Positions 4,274-20,073 of a stretch of 64,000 nucleotides of DNA are shown here, piece by piece. The DNA is taken from contig NZ_FNSM01000001.1 in the NCBI RefSeq assembly GCF_900105415.1, positions 1,922,001 through 1,986,000 of the forward strand, read 5' to 3'. This stretch comes from Streptomyces sp. TLI_105 (GTDB lineage Bacteria > Actinomycetota > Actinomycetes > Streptomycetales > Streptomycetaceae). Below the pieces are notes generated by a model that was given only the letters and a program-made list of their open reading frames with translations, was not told the DNA's origin and ran no database searches. Position numbers and translations under genes: made by a program. Numbering within the stretch: position 1 is the first letter of the stretch; each line of letters begins with the position of its first letter.

Positions 4274-5065
4274 TCAGATCCGACGGTAGCGGGTGAAGAG
4301 GAAGCCGTCCTGCTCCAGCACGGAAGCCACCTGGAAGCGTGTCGGGACGGCCACGGTGGGGCCCCCGGCGATCCGTTGGGCGTCACCCGCCGTCATCGTC
4401 GGCGAGATCGTCAGACACAGCTCGTCCAGGACGTCCGCCCCCACGAACTGACCGAGCAGCCGGGGCCCGCCCTCGGTCAGCTGGCGGCGCAGCCCGCGCT
4501 CCGCGAGCACCGCCACCGCACGGGCCGGCATCACCCGGGCCCCGTCGCCCGCGAAGAGCACCTCGGCGCCCGCCTCCCGGGCGGCCCGGATCCGGTCGGC
4601 GGGCGCTCCGGAGCCGGTGAGGACCACGGTCGGCACCAGCGGCTCGGTGAAGAGCGGCAGCGAGAAGTCCAGGTCGAGGGAGGCGCTGACCACGGCGATC
4701 ACGGGGGCCGGGCCCTGGCCCGCGGCGGCCCGGCGGTCCGTGAAGGCCTCCCGCGCCCGGGCCGGGCGGTAGCCCTCCAGGCGGACCGTTTCGGCGCCGA
4801 CCACGACCACGTCGGCGAGCCCGCGCAGGATGCCGAAGATCCGCATGTCGGTCTCGGAGGAGAGCGGCTGGGAGCGCCCGTCGTGTTGACCGGCGCCGTC
4901 GAGCGAGGAGACCATGTTGGCCCGCAGCCAGGTGCCGTCGCCCTCCGGATACGCGTAGGCGTCGGCGAGGGCGTCGAGCGACCACTCGCGATCGGAGGCG
5001 GGCGACCACCCCTGGTCGGAGGCGGTCGATGCTGTCATGTCCGTCACAGGGAAGAGCTGGCGCAT
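4274..5065 (-). CDS. Pyrimidine reductase / RibD C-terminal (DHFR-like) family protein
   Basis: 263 residues with the RibD_C reductase fold: LRANMVSSLDGAG near residue 50, a VVVGAETVR segment near 90, and the NADPH-binding motif LTEGGPRLLGQ near 205. Family members reduce deaminated riboflavin-pathway pyrimidines or related substrates with NADPH. This copy has no deaminase half and is far from rib genes, so its substrate is open. It starts at an ATG at 5065, divergent from zapE with 36 bp between them. Confidence 0.85.
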   Translation of the reverse strand: MRQLFPVTDMTASTASDQGWSPASDREWSLDALADAYAYPEGDGTWLRANMVSSLDGAGQHDGRSQPLSSETDMRIFGILRGLADVVVVGAETVRLEGYRPARAREAFTDRRAAAGQGPAPVIAVVSASLDLDFSLPLFTEPLVPTVVLTGSGAPADRIRAAREAGAEVLFAGDGARVMPARAVAVLAERGLRRQLTEGGPRLLGQFVGADVLDELCLTISPTMTAGDAQRIAGGPTVAVPTRFQVASVLEQDGFLFTRYRRI

Positions 5066-5101
5066 CCTCGCAGTCTGGCACGGCGCTTACAGTGGGGAAC
5101 T

Positions 5102-6187
5102 GTGTCGACCCGTGCCTTCATCGAAGCGGCTTCCCCGGAAGCGGCCCCGCTCTCGCTCTGCTCCCGAGAGCCCCATGTCCCCGCCGACCGCCTCGTCGCG
5201 GAGATGGTGCCGCCGCCGCGCTTCGACTCCGTCCGCTTCGACACGTACCTGCCCGACCCGAACCAGCCGAGCCAGACGGACGCCGTCAAGGCCCTGAGCG
5301 CCTTCGCCGAGGGCCTCGGCGGAGCGCACGCCTCCGGCGCCGGCAAGCGCCGCTGGTTCGCGAAGAAGCCGGCCGCCCCGAGCGGCCCCCGCGGGGTCTA
5401 CCTGGACGGCGGGTACGGCGTCGGCAAGACCCACCTGCTCGCCTCGCTGTGGCACGCGACCCCCGCGGAGCCCGCGCTGAAAGCATTCGGCACCTTCGTC
5501 GAGCTGACCAACCTGGTCGGCGCGCTCGGCTTCCAGCAGACCGTGAAGACGCTCAGCGGACACCGTCTCCTCTGCATCGACGAGTTCGAGCTCGACGACC
5601 CGGGCGACACCGTCCTCGTCTCCAGCCTCCTCGGCAAGCTCGTCGAGTCGGGCGTGGCCCTCGCCGCCACCTCGAACACGCTCCCGGGCAAGCTCGGCGA
5701 GGGCCGCTTCGCCGCCGCCGACTTCCTCCGCGAGATCCAGGGGCTCTCCGCCCACTTCCGGCCGCTGCGGATCGACGGCGAGGACTACCGCCACCGCGGT
5801 CTGCCCGAAGCCCCGTCCCCGTACTCCGACCAGGTCGTCACCCAGACCGCGTACGCGACGCCGGGCGCCTCCCTCGACGACTTCCCGCATCTGCTCGAAC
5901 ACCTGGCCAGGGTTCACCCGAGCCGGTACGGCGCCCTCACGGACGAGCTCAGCGCCGTCTGCCTCACCGACGTCCAGCCGGTCCCGGACCAGTCCACGGC
6001 GCTGCGGCTCGTCGTCCTCGCCGACCGGCTCTACGACCGCGAGATACCCGTGCTCGCCTCCGGTCTCCCCTTCGACAGGCTGTTCAGCGAGGAGATGCTG
6101 AACGGCGGCTACCGCAAGAAGTACTTCCGGGCGATCTCGCGGCTCACCGCGCTCGCCCGCGACGCGAAGGGACTCGTCGCGCAGTAG
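5102..6187 (+). CDS. zapE: Cell division ATPase ZapE (AFG1-like)
   Basis: 361 residues from a GTG. The AAA-type Walker A is GGYGVGKT (103-110), with K109. The Walker B is LLCIDEFE, with D160/E161. The LFSEEMLNGGYRKKYFRAISRL tail is typical of the AFG1/ZapE family. In E. coli ZapE acts on FtsZ rings under stress; the actinobacterial role is less clear. The GTG is only four bases after GGGGA, so an internal ATG at 5203 is an alternative start, but I recall homologues beginning at STRAFIE. Confidence 0.88.
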   Translation: MSTRAFIEAASPEAAPLSLCSREPHVPADRLVAEMVPPPRFDSVRFDTYLPDPNQPSQTDAVKALSAFAEGLGGAHASGAGKRRWFAKKPAAPSGPRGVYLDGGYGVGKTHLLASLWHATPAEPALKAFGTFVELTNLVGALGFQQTVKTLSGHRLLCIDEFELDDPGDTVLVSSLLGKLVESGVALAATSNTLPGKLGEGRFAAADFLREIQGLSAHFRPLRIDGEDYRHRGLPEAPSPYSDQVVTQTAYATPGASLDDFPHLLEHLARVHPSRYGALTDELSAVCLTDVQPVPDQSTALRLVVLADRLYDREIPVLASGLPFDRLFSEEMLNGGYRKKYFRAISRLTALARDAKGLVAQ

Positions 6188-6221
6188 CTTGGGGGCCGTA
6201 CCCGATCGAAAGGGATCCACC

Positions 6222-6647
6222 ATGGCCACCGTGCGTCACGCCCACACCGTCTGGCAGGGCGACCTCCTCAAGGGCTCCGGCGTCGTCACCCTCGACTCCT
6301 CCGGTCTCGGCTCGTACGACGTCTCCTGGCCGGCCCGGTCTGAGGAGCCCAACGGCAAGACCAGCCCCGAGGAGCTCATCGCCGCCGCGCACTCCTCCTG
6401 CTTCTCGATGGCCTTCTCCAACGGTCTGGCCAAGGCGGGCCACGCCCCCGACCGCCTGGAGACGAAGGCCGACGTCACGTTCCAGCCGGGCGAGGGCATC
6501 ACCGGCATCCACCTGACCGTGCGCGGCACGGTCTCCGGCCTGGACGCGGACGAGTTCCAGGCGCTCGCCGAGGACGCGAAGAAGAACTGCCCGGTCAGCC
6601 AGGCGCTCACGGGCACGACCATCACCCTCACCGCCGAACTGGCCTGA
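6222..6647 (+). CDS. OsmC/Ohr-family peroxiredoxin
   Basis: 141 residues, full length for OsmC. The two redox cysteines are in AAAHSSCFSMAF and in NCPVSQAL, matching the peroxidatic and resolving cysteines of thiol-dependent organic hydroperoxide reductases. It lies 34 bp after zapE with AAAGGGAT ahead of the ATG and may be cotranscribed with it. The subtype (OsmC versus Ohr) is judged from the CPVS motif as OsmC and is less certain. Confidence 0.93.
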   Translation: MATVRHAHTVWQGDLLKGSGVVTLDSSGLGSYDVSWPARSEEPNGKTSPEELIAAAHSSCFSMAFSNGLAKAGHAPDRLETKADVTFQPGEGITGIHLTVRGTVSGLDADEFQALAEDAKKNCPVSQALTGTTITLTAELA

Positions 6648-6782
6648 CGTCAGGTCAGGACACACGCCACACGGGGCAGTTGTGGCCCGCATGGTTCACG
6701 CGCCACGAGGGTGCGTGATACACACGTGCGGGTCACACGTCACCTCACACACACCTGTCCGCCAACAGGAAGTGGTTGCCCC

Positions 6783-8162
6783 ATGTCCGCAACGCGACGT
6801 CAGATCCTCTCCCGCACCGGCGCGTCCGTCGCCGGGATCGCCTTCACGGGCGCCCTCTCCGAACTCTTCGCCGGAAGCGCCGCGGCCGCCGGAAGCGCCG
6901 CGGCCGCGAGCCGCCGGGGAGGCTACGGCCCCCTCGTACCGGACCCGGACGGCCTCCTCGACCTCCCCGCCGGCTTCCGCTACAAGGTGCTCTCCCGGCA
7001 GGGCGACCCGCTCCGCTCCGGCGAGGGACTCGTCCCCAGCAACCACGACGGCATGGGCGCCTTCGCCGGCCGCCGCGGCCGGGTGCACCTCGTCCGCAAC
7101 CACGAGAACCGGGTCACCGGGAAGATCGCCGTCCCCACCGTCCCCGGCCTCACGTACGACCCGGCGGGCAAGGGCGGCTGCACGGTCCTCGAACTCGACG
7201 GACGGAACGACGTCCTGGGCGAGCGGGTCGCCATCGCCGGGACCGCCGTCAACTGCGCGGGCGGCCACACGCCGTGGAACACCTGGCTGACCTGCGAGGA
7301 GACCGAGGACCGGGCCGGCACCAACGGCTACACCAAGGACCACGGCTTCGTCTTCGAGGTCGACGGAGCCGACCCGCACCGCACCGGGGCCGTCCCTCTC
7401 ACCGCGATGGGCCGCTTCCAGCACGAGGCCGTCGCCGTCGACCCCACGAGCGGCATCGTGTACGAGACGGAGGACGCCTTCGAACGGCCCTTCGGGCTCT
7501 TCTACCGCTTCCTTCCCGAGAAGCCGCTCGGCGGCACCGGCTCGCTGCGCGCGGGCGGCACCCTGGAGGCCATGCGGGTGCCCGGCGTGCCCGACCTCTC
7601 CGTCGTCCAGGAGACCGGCGCCCGCTTCGAGGGCATCGAGTGGGTCCCCGTACCGGACCCCCTGGCGACCGGGACCCCGATCCGGCACCAGGACTTCGGG
7701 CCCAGGGGCATCACGCACGCCCAGAAGCTGGAGGGCTGCTACTGGGGCGGGCGAGCCGTCTACTTCGTGTCCTCCTTCGCACGGGCCAGGGACGGCTCGG
7801 CCGCCACGCACTTCGGCCAGGTGTGGAAGTACGAGCCGCACAGGAGGCGGCTCACCCTCGTCGTGGTCTTCGGCCCGAGCACCGACGTCCGGCTCCCCGG
7901 CGAGTCCCCGGACAACATCTGTCTGGCGCCGACCGGAGGCCTGATGGTCTGCGAGGACGGCGACGGGGCGCAGCACGTCTTCGGGGTGAGCGAGAAGGGC
8001 GAGGTGTACGCGGTCGCGAGGGGCGCGCAGAACATCGGCAGTCCGGAGGCCCCGGAGTGGGGCGAGTTCGCGGGCGTCACCTTCTCCCCGGACGGCGCGA
8101 CCATGTACGTCAACTGCTACACGCCCGGCACGACGTTCGCGGTGACGGGCCCCTGGTGCTGA
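6783..8162 (+). CDS. Tat-exported PhoX-like (DUF839) phosphatase-family protein
   Basis: 459 residues. The N-terminus has the twin-arginine motif RRQILSRTGASVAG followed by an Ala-rich cleavage region near residue 40. The mature part resembles DUF839/PhoX beta-propeller proteins: LVPSNHDGMGAF, VRNHENR, GTAVNCAGGHTPWNTWLTCEET and DNICLAPTGGLMVCEDGD. PhoX enzymes are exported, calcium/iron-dependent alkaline phosphatases; family members vary, so phosphatase activity is inferred. It starts at an ATG at 6783 with AGGAAG upstream. No clear phosphate-box array was found in the 135-bp upstream gap. Confidence 0.85.
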   Translation: MSATRRQILSRTGASVAGIAFTGALSELFAGSAAAAGSAAAASRRGGYGPLVPDPDGLLDLPAGFRYKVLSRQGDPLRSGEGLVPSNHDGMGAFAGRRGRVHLVRNHENRVTGKIAVPTVPGLTYDPAGKGGCTVLELDGRNDVLGERVAIAGTAVNCAGGHTPWNTWLTCEETEDRAGTNGYTKDHGFVFEVDGADPHRTGAVPLTAMGRFQHEAVAVDPTSGIVYETEDAFERPFGLFYRFLPEKPLGGTGSLRAGGTLEAMRVPGVPDLSVVQETGARFEGIEWVPVPDPLATGTPIRHQDFGPRGITHAQKLEGCYWGGRAVYFVSSFARARDGSAATHFGQVWKYEPHRRRLTLVVVFGPSTDVRLPGESPDNICLAPTGGLMVCEDGDGAQHVFGVSEKGEVYAVARGAQNIGSPEAPEWGEFAGVTFSPDGATMYVNCYTPGTTFAVTGPWC

Positions 8163-14471: not shown

Positions 14472-15860
14472 ATGACGGAACTCGGCATCGGCATCGGCTG
14501 GCGTCCCGAGATCGCGGAGGTGGTGGAGGCGCTGCCCGGCGTCGACTGGGTGGAGGTCGTCGCGGAGAACATCTGCGCGGACCATCTGCCCGACTCCCTG
14601 ACCCGGCTGCGCGAGCGCGGCGTGACGGTCGTGCCGCACGGCGTCTCGCTCGGGCTCGGCGGCGCGGACCGGCCGGACCCGGCGCGGCTCGCGGCGCTCG
14701 GCGAGAAGGCGGTGGCCCTGGGGGCGCCGCTGGTCACGGAGCACATCGCGTTCGTACGGGCCGGGGGGCCGCTCACCGCGACCCCGCTGCTCGAAGCGGG
14801 CCACCTGCTGCCCGTGCCCCGCACACGGGACGCCCTCGACGTGCTCTGCGAGAACGTGCGCATCGCGCAGGACGCGCTGCCCGTGCCGCTCGCCCTGGAG
14901 AACATCGCGGCCCTGATCGCCTGGCCGGGCGAGGAGATGACGGAGGGGCAGTTCCTGGCGGAGCTGGTGGAGCGTACGGGGGTACGGCTCCTCGTCGACG
15001 TCGCCAACCTGCACACCAACCACGTCAACCGGGGCGAGGACCCGGCGCGGGCCCTGTCCGAGCTGCCGGTCGAGGCGATCGCGTACGTGCACGTGGCGGG
15101 TGGTGTCGAGCGGGACGGTGTCTGGCACGACACCCACGCCCACCCGGTACCGCCCGCCGTCCTCGACATCCTGTCGGACCTCACGTCGCGGGTGTCCCCG
15201 CCGGGGGTACTGCTGGAACGGGACGACGACTTCCCGCCGACGGAGGAGCTGGCGGCGGAACTGGAGGCGGTGGCCTCTGTGGGCATACGTTCCGCAAGGG
15301 CGGAACGGGTGGGCACGGCCCACGCGCACGGCGCCCGTCCGCTGGTACCCGCACCCCGACGGCCGTCCCTGCTGATCGGCGCCGGCGCGAGGGCCTCGGG
15401 CGGCCCGATGCCGAGCGCCGCCCCCACCCTCCACGACCCCGCCCCGCGAGAAGGCGCCCGCCAGCGCCTGGCCGTGACCCAAGCCGCCCTCCTCTCCGCG
15501 CTCGTCGCCGGCACCCCCGTCCCCGAAGGTTTCGACACCCGTCGGATCGGGGTCCAGAGCCGCGCCCTCGCGGCCAAGCGGGCCGGGGTCGTGGCGAAGG
15601 TCGCGCCGGAGCTGCCGGAGATCCTCGGCAAGGGCTTCCGGCCCGCGTTCCTCGCGTACGCCCGGTCCCGTCCCATGACCGGCGGCTACCGCCGGGACGC
15701 GCTCGACTTCGTCGAGCACCTGCTGCTCGCCGGCCGGCCGGAGGACCCGGTGGCACGGCGGCGGCTCACGGAGTGGTGGCAGGACCGTTCCGGCAGCCGC
15801 CCGCCGGGCCGTGCCACCCGGCTCGTACGGGCCGCCCGCCACGCCCTCGTACGGAGATGA
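14472..15860 (+). CDS. DUF692 multinuclear non-haem iron (MNIO) enzyme with fused partner-like C-terminal domain
   Basis: 462 residues. Residues 1-260 form the DUF692 TIM barrel with a full candidate metal-ligand set: H56 ([10 protein letters not shown]), E90/H91, E143 (ALENIA), D176 and N179 ([10 protein letters not shown]), H207, D220/H222 (DTHAHP) and E249. Such enzymes oxidatively modify Cys or other residues of RiPP precursors (MbnB, TglH, bufferin families). Residues 330-450 resemble the DUF2063/HvfC-type partner that binds substrate, so enzyme and partner appear fused by a Pro/Ala linker. A strong AAGGAGGGGG lies before the ATG. The stop overlaps the next ATG, which ties this enzyme to the Cys-rich membrane protein that follows. 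Confidence 0.88.
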
Positions 15861-16924
15861 CCGTGAACTTCCTCCTCGTCCTCGTCTACCTCGCGGGCGC
15901 CGTCGGCATCGCCCTCGTCATCACCCGGGTCGTCCGGACGCGCGGCGGTCCCGGCGGGCCCGTCCACGACCGGTACGAGGTCGCCTTCCTCAACGGCGGC
16001 CCGGCCCGCGTCGTCGACACCGCGCTCGCCGCCCTCCAGGCGGACGGCAGGATCGCGATCGGCGGCCCCGGCATCGTCGCGGTCGTCCGCCCCACCGCGT
16101 ACGACCCGGTGGAGCGCGCCGTCCTCCAGGAGCACGCCGCCGCGCCGCACGGGGCCCTGCACCATCTGCGTCTCGGTGTGATGCGGCACCCTGCGGTCCA
16201 GGAGATCGGCGACGGCCTCGCGGCGCGGGGGCTGATCGTCGCACCGGCGACGCGGCGGACCACGGCCCGCTGGTGTGCCGCCCTCGGTCTGACGGCCTTC
16301 GTGCTCTTCCCGGTCTCGATCCTCCTCACCGTGATCGACTTCGCTGGCGACCCGGAGTTCCGGCTCCCGTTCGTCATCAAGGTGCTGCCGGTGCTGCTCG
16401 CCGCCGGGATCACCGCGATCGTCTGCGGCTCGATCTCCGCCGGGCAGGTCACCTCGGCCGGCCGCCGTGCGGTCTTCGCGTACGGACGGGCGCACGGCCA
16501 TCTCGCCGACGCCGGGCATCTCGTGGCCCTGCACGGGCTGCGGGCCGTGCCGGATCCGGTGCTCCGGGAGCAGCTCGTCGCCGCCGCCCGGTTCTACGGG
16601 CCGCCGCGGCGGCGGAACGGGCGCCGCGGGCGGCCCTCGCCGTCGCCGTCGCACTTCTCCTCCTCGGACGCGGCCGTCCTCGGGGTGGCGACCGAGTGGT
16701 GCGCGACCAACAGCTCCTGCGGAGGAGGGGGCGGGAGCTCCTGCTCGGGTGGTGGGAGCTCTTGTTCGGGCGGCGGCGGTTCCTGCTCGTCCGGGTCCTG
16801 TTCCTCCGGTTCCTGCTCCGGAGGCGGATCGAGCTGCGGCAGCTCCGGAGGCGGGTCGAGCTGCGGAAGCTCCAGCTCGTGTTCGAGTTCGAGCTCCAGC
16901 TCGTGTTCCAGCTCCAGCGGCTGA
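15857..16924 (+). CDS. TIGR04222-type membrane protein with Cys/Ser/Gly-rich tail
   Basis: 355 residues, translated from an ATG overlapping the DUF692 stop (ATGA). Hydrophobic segments lie at about 4-24, 143-165 and 172-195. Arginine-rich loops flank segments 1 and 3, so by the positive-inside rule the C-terminal part is cytosolic. Residues 283-355 are low complexity: 11 Cys separated almost only by Ser and Gly, preceded by an RRRNGRRGR basic patch. The domain between segments 1 and 2 matches my memory of the TIGR04222 model, found on proteins with Cys-rich low-complexity ends. It is the probable substrate of the upstream MNIO enzyme. No leader-peptide gene was seen. Confidence 0.85.
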
Positions 16925-16971
16925 GGGCCGATCGGGTGGCGGGCGTGCCCCTCGTCCCGTAGAACCGGGGC

Positions 16972-17694
16972 ATGATCTGGGTTCCGCTCCTCCTGGTGGC
17001 GTACGTCGTGGCCAGTGTCGGCTGCGTGCGGGTGTGCCGTGCCTCGCTCGCCGCCGACCGCCCGCACGGGTCGCCCGGCGGTGCGCGGGAGCTCACCGTG
17101 TGCGAGGCGGCCTACCTCGCCGGCGGCCCGCTCCGGGTCATCGATCTGACCCTGGTGTCGATGCACCGGTCGCGGCGGCTGCTGCTCGCCCACACCGGCT
17201 GGGCGACGGTCGTGGACGCGACCGGCGGGGACGAGCTGGAGCGCGCGGTGCTGGCGGCCATCGGGCCCGGCGGGCAGTCGCCGATCCCCGCCGTCCGTCC
17301 GGTGGTCGCCGACGCCGAGTCCGTACGCCTCCTCGCGGACGATCTCGTCGGCCGGGGGCTCGCCGTGTCCGAGGAGGGCCGCCGGGAGATCGCGGCGGGG
17401 ATGCGGGCGGTGCGGGCGGGGTTCCTGCTGACGCTGGTGCTGGGGACGGCCGCGGCGCTCCTGGTGCCGGCGGCCGACCGGTCCCTGGTCGTCGCCGCGT
17501 TCGCGCTGCCGCTGGTCGGGTCGGGGCTCTGCCTGCTGATCGGCCGGGCCGAGGTGTATCCGTACACCCGCTGGGCGTCACCGGCCGGGCAGCGGCTGCT
17601 CTCCGGGCTCTCGCGGACCGATCCGCTGACCGCCCTCGCGACGCGCGGTCCCGCCGTCCTCGAACCGGAGCTCCGCGCGGCCCTGGAAGGCTGA
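16972..17694 (+). CDS. TIGR04222-like membrane protein without the Cys tail
   Basis: 240 residues. Layout parallels the preceding protein: an N-terminal hydrophobic segment, a 110-residue soluble domain with EAAYLAGGPLRVIDLTLVSM like the [20 protein letters not shown] of its neighbour, then two hydrophobic segments near 150 and 170. It ends before any Cys-rich tail. The gene starts 47 bp after the previous stop on the same strand, so it is probably in the same operon. It could be a scaffold or a divergent duplicate. Confidence 0.78.
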   Translation: MIWVPLLLVAYVVASVGCVRVCRASLAADRPHGSPGGARELTVCEAAYLAGGPLRVIDLTLVSMHRSRRLLLAHTGWATVVDATGGDELERAVLAAIGPGGQSPIPAVRPVVADAESVRLLADDLVGRGLAVSEEGRREIAAGMRAVRAGFLLTLVLGTAAALLVPAADRSLVVAAFALPLVGSGLCLLIGRAEVYPYTRWASPAGQRLLSGLSRTDPLTALATRGPAVLEPELRAALEG

Positions 17695-17878: not shown

Positions 17879-18592
17879 TCAGGCCAGGCCCGCCACCAGG
17901 TCGGCGACGCTCTTGCGGCGGCCGGTGAAGAACGGGACCTCCTCGCGGACGTGCATCCGCGCCTCGGAGGCGCGCAGGTGGCGCATGAGGTCGACGATGC
18001 GGTGCAGCTCGTCGGCCTCGAAGGCGAGGAGCCACTCGTAGTCGCCGAGCGAGAAGGAGGCGACCGTGTTGGCACGGACGTCCGGGTAGCCGCGGGCCAT
18101 CTTGCCGTGGTCGGCGAGCATGCGGCGGCGGTCCTCGTCCGGCAGCAGGTACCAGTCGTAGGAGCGCACGAAGGGGTACACCGAGACGTAGTCGCGCGGG
18201 TTCTCGTCGGCCAGGAAGGCCGGGATGTGCGACTTGTTGAACTCGGCCGGGCGGTGCAGCGCCATGTTCGACCAGACCGGCTCCAGGGCGCGGCCCAGCT
18301 TGGTGCGGCGGAAGAGGTTGTACGCCTCCTGGAGCTCGTCGCTCGTCTCGGCGTGCCACCAGATCATGACGTCGGCGTCGGCGCGCAGACCGGAGAGGTC
18401 GTACGTGCCGCGGATCGTGATGTCCTTGGCCGCGAGCTGGTCGAACAGCTCCTGGACCTCGTCGGCGTAACCGCCGCGGTCCTCGGGGAGAACGTCGCGC
18501 AGCTTGAAGACGGACCACAGGGTGTAGCGGATGACCTCGTTGAGGTCCTTCGCCTTCTTACCGGCGTTCGGGATCTTTTCGGGCGCACTCAT
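17879..18592 (-). CDS. hemQ: Coproheme decarboxylase HemQ (chlorite dismutase family)
   Basis: 237 residues, matching actinobacterial HemQ/ChdC, the final enzyme of the coproporphyrin-dependent haem route, which oxidatively decarboxylates coproheme. Features include YTLWSVFKL, the [21 protein letters not shown] segment, [17 protein letters not shown] with the haem-proximal His region, and a C-terminal VPFFTGRRK. It lies 17 bp after hemY on the same strand and is probably cotranscribed. Confidence 0.95.
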
Positions 18593-18609
18593 ACGCCTAT
18601 TCTCGCCCG

Positions 18610-20073
18610 TCACGAGGAGTGCCCCGCACCGGGGTGCCCCGTTCCCGACGTGGCGATGATCTCGTCGGCCGCGCGGTGGGCCGAGGCGATGCAGGCGGGG
18701 ATGCCGACGCCGTCGTACGCGGCGCCCGCGAGCCGCAGTCCGGGGAGGGCGGCGACGGCCGCGCGGACGCGGGCGACGCGGGCGAGGTGGCCGACGGGGT
18801 ACTGGGGCAGGCCGTCGATCCAGCGGGTGACCGTGCTCGCGACCGGGTGTGCGGAGAGGCCGGTGGCGGCGGCGAGGTCCTTGAGGGAGGCGTCGACGAG
18901 GTCGGAGTCCTCGCGGTGGAGCTGCTCCTCCTCGCCGTGGCGGCCGACGGAGGTGCGCAGCACGAACAGGTCGGGGGCGCTGTCGGAGACCCACTGCCAC
19001 TTCCGGCCGGAGAACGTGGAGGCCTTGACGGTGTGGCCGTCGACGGGCGGCACGAGGAACCCGGAGCCCGGCAGGGCGGGCACGTCGGAGCGGCGGAAGG
19101 CGAGGGTGATCAGGGCCATGGAGGCGTAGTCGATCGCGTCGAGCTCGGCGGCGGCGGCCGGGGCGTGGCCGCCGAGGAGTCCGGCGGCGGTGCCGGCGGG
19201 GGTGGCGAGGACGACGGCGTCGGCGTCGAAGGTCCGGCCCCGGGTCACCACCTGCCAGCCGGTGGCGCCGGTGCGGACCAGGGCGTTCACTGGCGTGCCG
19301 GTGAGGATCTCGCCGCCGGCGGCGCGGATCGCCGCGGCGACCGCGCCGGGGAGGGTGCCGATGCCGCCCGCGATGCCGAGGAAGACGGCGCCGCCCAGGC
19401 CGGTGGCGGCGCCCGCCACGTCGGCGGGGGTGGCGGCGCCGGCCCGCTGGACGGCGTGGACGGCGGCGGTGAGCGTGGGGTGGACGCGGGCGGCCTCGAA
19501 GAGGGCGGGGACGGCGGCCTTCATCGAGATGCGGTGGGCGTCACCGGCGTACACCCCGCCGAGGAGGGGTTCGACGAGCCGGTCCACGACCTCGTGGCCC
19601 ATGCGCGCGGCGACGTACGCGCCGATGGCGATGTCCTCGCCGATCTCGGTCGGCGGCAGCTCCAGGTCGCCGCCGATGCGGCGCACGCCCTCGGGGGAGA
19701 GGAGCCCCTCGACGGCGGCGGGGTCGCCGGGGACGCCCATGACGTGGCCCTTCGGCATGGGGACCAGCTCGCCGCGGGACCAGACGGAGGCGGTGGTGGT
19801 CGCGGGGGCCTGGAGCCGGTCGCCGAGGCCGACGGCCCGGGCGAGGGCGACGGCCTCGGGGCGGCGGGCGAGCAGCGACTCGGCGCCGAGGTCGACGGGC
19901 GCGCCCGCGATCTCCCCGGCGAGGAGCTTCCCGCCGAGCCGTCCTCCGGCTTCGAGGAGGGTCACCCGGTGGCCGGCGAGGGCCAGTCGGTGGGCGGCGG
20001 CGAGTCCGGCGATCCCGCCTCCGGCGACGACGACATGAGGCCCGGCCTGCTGTCCCGTGGTGTCCGCGTTCAT
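18610..20073 (-). CDS. hemY: Coproporphyrinogen III/protoporphyrinogen oxidase
   Basis: 487 residues of FAD-dependent oxidase. The dinucleotide-binding motif [17 protein letters not shown] is at residues 14-30, followed by [11 protein letters not shown]. The C-terminus has the FAD-contact [17 protein letters not shown]. In actinobacteria with hemQ this enzyme normally oxidises coproporphyrinogen III (CgoX), so the name protoporphyrinogen oxidase is historical. It is followed by hemQ, and hemE lies 3 kb away in the same orientation. Confidence 0.94.

Follow-up and report, generated by a model that had tools for sequence, protein, structure and literature searches.

A predicted cytosolic Cys/Gly tail and an MNIO enzyme with a fused partner-like domain in Streptomyces

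Introduction

We have examined a three-gene locus of Streptomyces sp. TLI_105 (positions 14472–17694 of the window, by which we mean the whole 64,000-nucleotide stretch analyzed, positions 1,922,001–1,986,000 of contig NZ_FNSM01000001.1) that encodes a multinuclear nonheme iron-dependent oxidative (MNIO, DUF692) enzyme and two membrane proteins of the TIGR04222 family, the first of which ends in a Cys-rich tail. The enzyme appears to be a natural fusion of an MNIO with its partner, the tail is predicted to lie in the cytosol, and similar tails stand beside such enzymes on other, dissimilar carriers. The reading that we favor, and hold to be rather probable, is that the locus is a self-contained unit in which the enzyme-partner chain oxidizes the Cys residues of the tail in the cytosol, most likely to one 5-thiooxazole per Cys.

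The pairing of the two families is itself known. An original prediction, made from the letters of the window, had presented it as a candidate undescribed modification system, a claim that we reject: the available text of PMC12452194 (Microb Genom 2025) already describes the MNIO-TIGR04222 pairing and proposes the tail as substrate. According to that text, TIGR04222 membrane proteins occur mostly in Actinomycetota and are often but not always linked to an MNIO, the Cys-tailed subset being putative substrates. (The term TIGR04222 is also found in the available part of a Pseudonocardia genome paper.) What appears to be new, and can be tested, is that the enzyme has a partner-like domain fused to it, that the tail is predicted to be cytosolic, and that it may be a portable tag.

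Results

The Enzyme and Its Tailed Neighbor

The MNIO coding sequence (14472–15860, + strand, 462 codons) starts with ATG, with AAGGAGGGGG just upstream, and overlaps by 4 bp (ATGA, 15857–15860) the coding sequence of the tailed membrane protein (15857–16924, + strand, 355 codons and a stop). After 47 bp comes a paralogue of 240 residues (16972–17694, + strand) that lacks the tail and has four scattered Cys (residues 18, 22, 44, and 187). Both membrane proteins match NCBIfam TIGR04222 (149.1 bits over residues 8–232 of the first, and 112.7 bits; cut-off 43), and the genome as a whole has one MNIO gene and three TIGR04222 genes above the cut-off. The gene order, the overlap, the 11-Cys tail, and the paralogue are thus as originally predicted.

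The catalytic domain of the enzyme (residues 5–269, 14484–15278) was delimited with the PF05114 profile (262 bits; cut-off 25), by ligand conservation, and by alignment to the solved chains 8hci_D and 3bww_A. The candidate metal ligands are H56, H91, E143, D176, N179, H207, D220, and H222, identical in 169 of 169 aligned rows (a set that includes the window enzyme itself and some genomes more than once), and E249, kept in 167, the other two being gaps; the full iron-ligand pattern attributed to the enzyme is thus conserved. The enzyme does not reach the level of a bufferin or captophorin maturase: the best-scoring NCBIfam model, that for BufB, gives 182.7 bits against a cut-off of 310, and that for HvfB 142.7 against 360. 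Beyond a linker (residues 270–323, 15279–15440, between the end of the Pfam domain and the first helix of the model of what follows), the last ~140 residues (324–462, 15441–15857) form a separate, partner-like domain, which the original prediction overlooked.

The tail (residues 281–355 of the membrane protein, 16697–16921) comprises 75 residues, among them 11 Cys, 23 Gly, and 37 Ser. Its carrier lacks the small size of a precursor of a ribosomally synthesized and post-translationally modified peptide, which has a cleavable leader, and is a membrane protein of 355 residues, in agreement with the original prediction. A model of residues 1–267 (pLDDT 91.6) has long helices at 2–29, 130–164, and 172–195. 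The soluble domain (window 15857–16657, model m6d906a0ecf84) bears a weak likeness in sequence and fold to DUF2207_C and GPP34/Vps74.

The Tail Accompanies the Enzyme on Three Carriers

Among close relatives (the best 80 of 548 confirmed stretches, 79 titled Streptomyces and one "[Kitasatospora] papulosa"), the enzyme gene is still followed by a Cys-tailed TIGR04222 gene in 65, one of them truncated at a contig end, and so the arrangement is not due to chance. Of the rest, one has no TIGR04222 gene in the remaining 4.4 kb of its contig and four are cut by contig ends; the other ten are considered below. More widely, a class-level sample of 296 genomes contained 53 with both families, 13 with an MNIO only, 21 with TIGR04222 only, and 209 with neither (Fisher p = 6e-29, uncorrected for relatedness), and 55 of 97 TIGR04222 matches lay at most 4 kb from an MNIO on the same strand. 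In a phylum-level sample of 149 genomes, an MNIO was found in nine and TIGR04222 above the cut-off in six, five of which were among the nine. Because at most nine candidates per genome were scored at the class level and at most 17 at the phylum level, the numbers of genomes without TIGR04222 are maximum values. The two genes were thus not found apart in most genomes, an outcome that would have spoken against the original prediction.

The association is specific to the Cys repeats. At least three [GS]C[GS] motifs in the last 60 residues were present in 34 of 51 TIGR04222 proteins encoded next to an MNIO, in five of 20 encoded elsewhere in MNIO-bearing genomes, and in one of 21 from MNIO-free genomes. 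The corresponding figures are 25 of 27, five of 12, and one of 21 outside Streptomyces, and nine of 24 (adjacent) and none of eight (distant) within it, the low Streptomyces figure being due in part to tail-less paralogues that stand beside a tailed protein. Five of the 97 matches were left unscored, being unmatched or open at the 3′ end; one of the two unmatched, in L086, has a Cys-repeat tail and would have joined the adjacent group. Each of the 177 Cys residues counted in the repeat tails precedes a small residue (Gly 144, Ser 26, Ala 7), and the spacings cluster at 5–7. This agrees with the preference of the thiooxazole enzyme FonBC for small residues after the modified Cys (PMC13097082), Ser not being among the variants seen in the available text of that report. 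Several tails from MNIO-free genomes are still Gly-rich but have Asp or no Cys; those in L231, L232, L233, and L243 have Gly/Asp-rich ends, as if Asp had replaced Cys where there is no MNIO.

The tail is not confined to TIGR04222 proteins. The bacterial family to which genome G413 belongs (35 genomes, a match in 26 of them) gave 30 loci. Of these loci, 26 carry an MNIO together with the partner-like domain, and at 22 of the 26 a Cys/Gly tail is borne by one of three dissimilar carriers: a TIGR04222 protein (13 loci), a mini-protein of 83–119 residues with a single membrane segment (seven), or a larger protein without a membrane segment (two), that is, without a 19-residue hydrophobic window of 1.5 or more. 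Three MNIO loci of this family that lack the domain also lack the tail, and one further locus was not recognized by the profile. An eighth mini-protein is found in L206, from another bacterial family. At locus L196 two segment-less carriers (4879–6234 and 6483–7790, − strand) lie in tandem upstream of a fused MNIO. A protein search with this carrier type gave two matches, a close relative and a protein of Frankia sp. Cpl3 that corresponds to the second copy in L196, both with Cys/Gly-rich ends; the search was not exhaustive, a relative in L251 being absent from its list. No Pfam family matched the first L196 copy. At L137 (1100–1459) an extra short frame with a Cys/Ser/Gly-rich end, possibly a chance frame, overlaps an MNIO locus with TIGR04222 genes.

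Since the same tail stands beside the enzyme on dissimilar carriers, it is a more constant companion of the enzyme than the membrane domain is. We tentatively propose, at somewhat less than even odds, that the real unit is a portable C-terminal Cys/Gly tag. A single MNIO clade, its partner either fused or encoded next to it, would modify this tag in the cytosol on all three carriers and so make, rather than an exported peptide, a protein-bound thiooxazole inside the cell that serves as a metal or thiol-stress buffer.

An alternative is that the target of the enzyme is a residue other than Cys, whether in the TIGR04222 domain or in a different protein such as the neighboring DUF4142 protein, and that the unmodified thiols of the Cys tail bind metal. 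Several observations count against the tail as substrate. Ten of the 80 Streptomyces loci clearly have only a tail-less TIGR04222 gene, and in seven of the ten a DUF4142 gene lies between it and the enzyme; four of the 26 domain-bearing loci in the G413 family show no tail in the short stretch examined; and four Streptomyces genomes (G211, G260, G238, and G270; loci L222, L240, L244, and L247) have an MNIO operon without a Cys tail, together with a distant TIGR04222 protein whose last 60 residues contain a single Cys in a Gly-containing end and which might serve in trans. The ten loci speak for the alternative, and MNIOs that act on Asp, Asn, or Phe (PMC12452194) and on homocitrulline (PMC13174530) are known from the available texts. 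The alternative would, however, leave aside the presence of Cys repeats next to the enzyme on three unlike carriers and their near absence (one of 21) from the TIGR04222 proteins of MNIO-free genomes, and we judge it unlikely, though not far-fetched. The original claim that the enzyme acts on the Cys tail of the membrane protein thus gains support, as an inference, from the repeats and the carriers. Irrespective of strand, a DUF4142-like frame lies near the MNIO in 42 of the 80 Streptomyces loci, preceding it in 36 and following it in nine (three loci have both), and also in L180 (5172–6269). As its position varies from upstream to downstream to absent, we did not adopt DUF4142 as a member of the unit.

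The Tail Is Predicted to Be Cytosolic

Of 64 aligned TIGR04222 proteins (one row, L003, being the window protein again, and another, L137, apparently misaligned at its N-terminus), 61 passed our helix criterion and three failed. The mean number of Lys and Arg residues in the 61 was 0.2 before helix 1, 2.9 in the 15 residues after it, 3.1 in the 15 before helix 2, 0.7 between helices 2 and 3, and 3.0 in the 15 after helix 3. Lys and Arg were more numerous on the side of the tail in 60 of the 61 and less so in one; by density that side was richer in 54. The segment ahead of helix 1 is short and sensitive to where the sequence was cut, unlike the loop between helices 2 and 3, which is net negative in 39 of the 61. 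All eight mini-proteins, with starts chosen by script, likewise have 0–1 Lys or Arg before their helix and 4–9 after it. Under the positive-inside rule this asymmetry predicts that the tail lies in the cytosol, where the enzyme is expected, as the original prediction had it and contrary to the published statement. A "membrane-displayed" product was also envisaged; in the sense of display toward the outside, it is not supported.

The published alternative, to which we give only a small chance, holds that the tail is indeed modified but comes to lie outside, in the periplasm, as the counterpart of a bufferin anchored to the membrane. It is stated in the available text of PMC12452194 on the basis of predicted topology and AlphaFold models, and the bufferin-type MNIO products described there do bear Sec signal peptides, both of which tell against a cytosolic tail. 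It is hard to square with the charge distribution in the TIGR04222 proteins and the mini-proteins, with the presence of a similar tail on a carrier that has no detectable membrane segment, and with the N-terminus of the window enzyme, which by eye (rather than by a signal-peptide predictor) has no hydrophobic stretch.

The Enzyme Carries a Partner-Like Domain

An AlphaFold model of the C-terminal domain (pLDDT 92) is all-helical, with no strands. When it was compared by VIA-align with solved structures, the three best-ranked of 814 aligned chains were TglI, TglI again, and MbnC, all of them MNIO partners, at low absolute scores. Foldseek found no match below E 0.001 in the PDB or a viral library, and a profile search of solved-structure sequences with the domain alignment returned nothing useful. 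Comparison of the domain profile with that of three DUF2063 partners gave E 0.0098 and a probability of 4.2, which is a hint only. The DUF2063 profile matched three of 54 members of the domain family weakly (best E 0.0012), did not match the window domain at E ≤ 1, and found nothing in genome G000, so that the DUF2063 signature of PME-type 1 partners is lacking there. The window protein bears the precomputed Pfam label PF26136 ("SCO6045-like C-terminal domain" in UniRef names), a label shared with free-standing relatives, one of which (P0233) carries the DUF2063 label as well.

The genomic evidence points the same way. Of 47 TIGR04222-linked MNIOs in the 296-genome sample, 46 have the domain, fused in 28 and encoded by the next gene in 18; the remaining one (L130) matches at 44 bits, under the threshold of 50. 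A single MNIO clade of 60 rows (support 100/98) holds all domain-bearing rows of the tree, for which five of 75 MNIO matches had no fetched locus and two of the other 70 were too short. The fused state changes six times on the tree, at least four of the changes being forced by well-supported branches, with long branches flagged; we claim no number of fusion events, since frameshifts in draft genomes may account for some of the "separate" rows. Because the domain is an adjacent gene in other actinobacteria and the best solved matches to its model are MNIO partners, we infer that the window enzyme is a natural enzyme-partner fusion. With a fold like that of NGO1945/TglI, no DUF2063 signature, and a position directly after the MNIO, the domain resembles PME-type 2 partners, and by its modeled fold and genomic slot it probably acts as one. 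That it is instead an unrelated helical domain, and the fusion uninformative about how the enzyme works, is very improbable: the low structural scores, the profile-profile probability, and the separate Pfam label would suit this idea and so weigh against ours, but the three best of 814 chains, the DUF2063 matches and label among its relatives, and its place in the slot of partner genes do not.

Neighboring Genes and a Streptomyces coelicolor Counterpart

Just downstream of the three genes, and convergent with them (17879–20073, − strand), lie a chlorite-dismutase family gene (PF06778), which we take to be HemQ, and a flavin amine-oxidase family gene. The corresponding region of S. coelicolor is presumably SCO6044–SCO6047, and to judge from the name of PF26136, SCO6045 is probably the orthologous fused enzyme. 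According to the available text of PMC4991794, SCO6045 is among 28 genes induced by H2O2 in the wild type (3.0-fold) and deregulated in an hbpS-senS-senR mutant, along with cysteine-biosynthesis genes. This hints at a response to thiol or metal stress.

Discussion

The locus shares with the MNIO-TIGR04222 clusters of PMC12452194 its two families, its distribution in Actinomycetota, and its Cys/Gly/Ser C-terminal tail as putative substrate. It departs from their description in the available text in the near-constant partner-like domain, in the predicted cytosolic location of the tail, and in the existence of other carriers. In that text, no fewer than 10% of the clusters have a PME-type 2 partner and many seemingly lack a partner gene, and we found no mention of a natural MNIO-PME fusion. 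PME-type 2 partners are, like the window domain, short helical proteins with a fold related to NGO1945/TglI, encoded right after the MNIO; the window domain differs in being covalently fused, and its match to the published examples is one of description. In the sources examined, no function as an MNIO partner is attached to the name PF26136.

Bufferins and captophorins (BufB-BufC, HvfB-HvfC, FonB-FonC) also combine an MNIO, a DUF2063-like partner, and repeated Cys followed by a small residue, but their substrates are small Sec-exported peptides and their partners are of PME-type 1, with DUF2063 and a RiPP recognition element (RRE), whereas in the window the putative substrate is a large membrane protein and the partner-like domain is short and all-helical. 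At the BufB-like actinobacterial loci L119, L120, L121, and L278, a protein encoded downstream has by eye a ferritin-like EEMLH-type sequence, and DUF2063 partners are shown at L119, L120, and L278. The engineered HvfBC fusion, which yields more 5-thiooxazole product than the co-expressed pair (PMC13419390, a 2026 preprint, available text), joins the C-terminus of the MNIO to the N-terminus of the partner in one chain, as here; it is artificial and has no linker, whereas the window fusion is natural and has some 54 linker residues. MovX, of a Vibrio methanobactin-like cluster, is likewise an MNIO with a fused C-terminal accessory domain, but in the available accounts (PMC12452194, PMC13419390) that domain is a winged-helix RRE, whereas the window model is all-helical.

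In the mechanism that we propose, the MNIO domain would carry its PME-type-2-like partner on one chain, and three membrane helices would place the soluble domain and the C-terminal tail of the TIGR04222 protein in the cytosol. The chain would then oxidize the Cys residues of the flexible Gly/Ser/Cys tail one after another, with a loss of 4 Da for each 5-thiooxazole formed, and the cytosolic side of the membrane would thereby acquire a tethered series of soft-metal or redox-active heterocycles. A copper role for the modified tail may be suggested by analogy.

In its available text, PMC12452194 leaves open how TIGR04222 proteins become modified, given the many clusters in which no partner gene is apparent. 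The fused domain, if it is a partner, would answer this puzzle for Streptomyces and would provide a natural single-chain enzyme, a useful one since weak binding between HvfB and HvfC prompted the engineered fusion (PMC13419390). The published topology, and with it the notion of a copper shield facing outward, would have to be revised should the tail prove cytosolic. A pair of genes that is widespread in Streptomyces, and that may be linked to redox, becomes directly testable.

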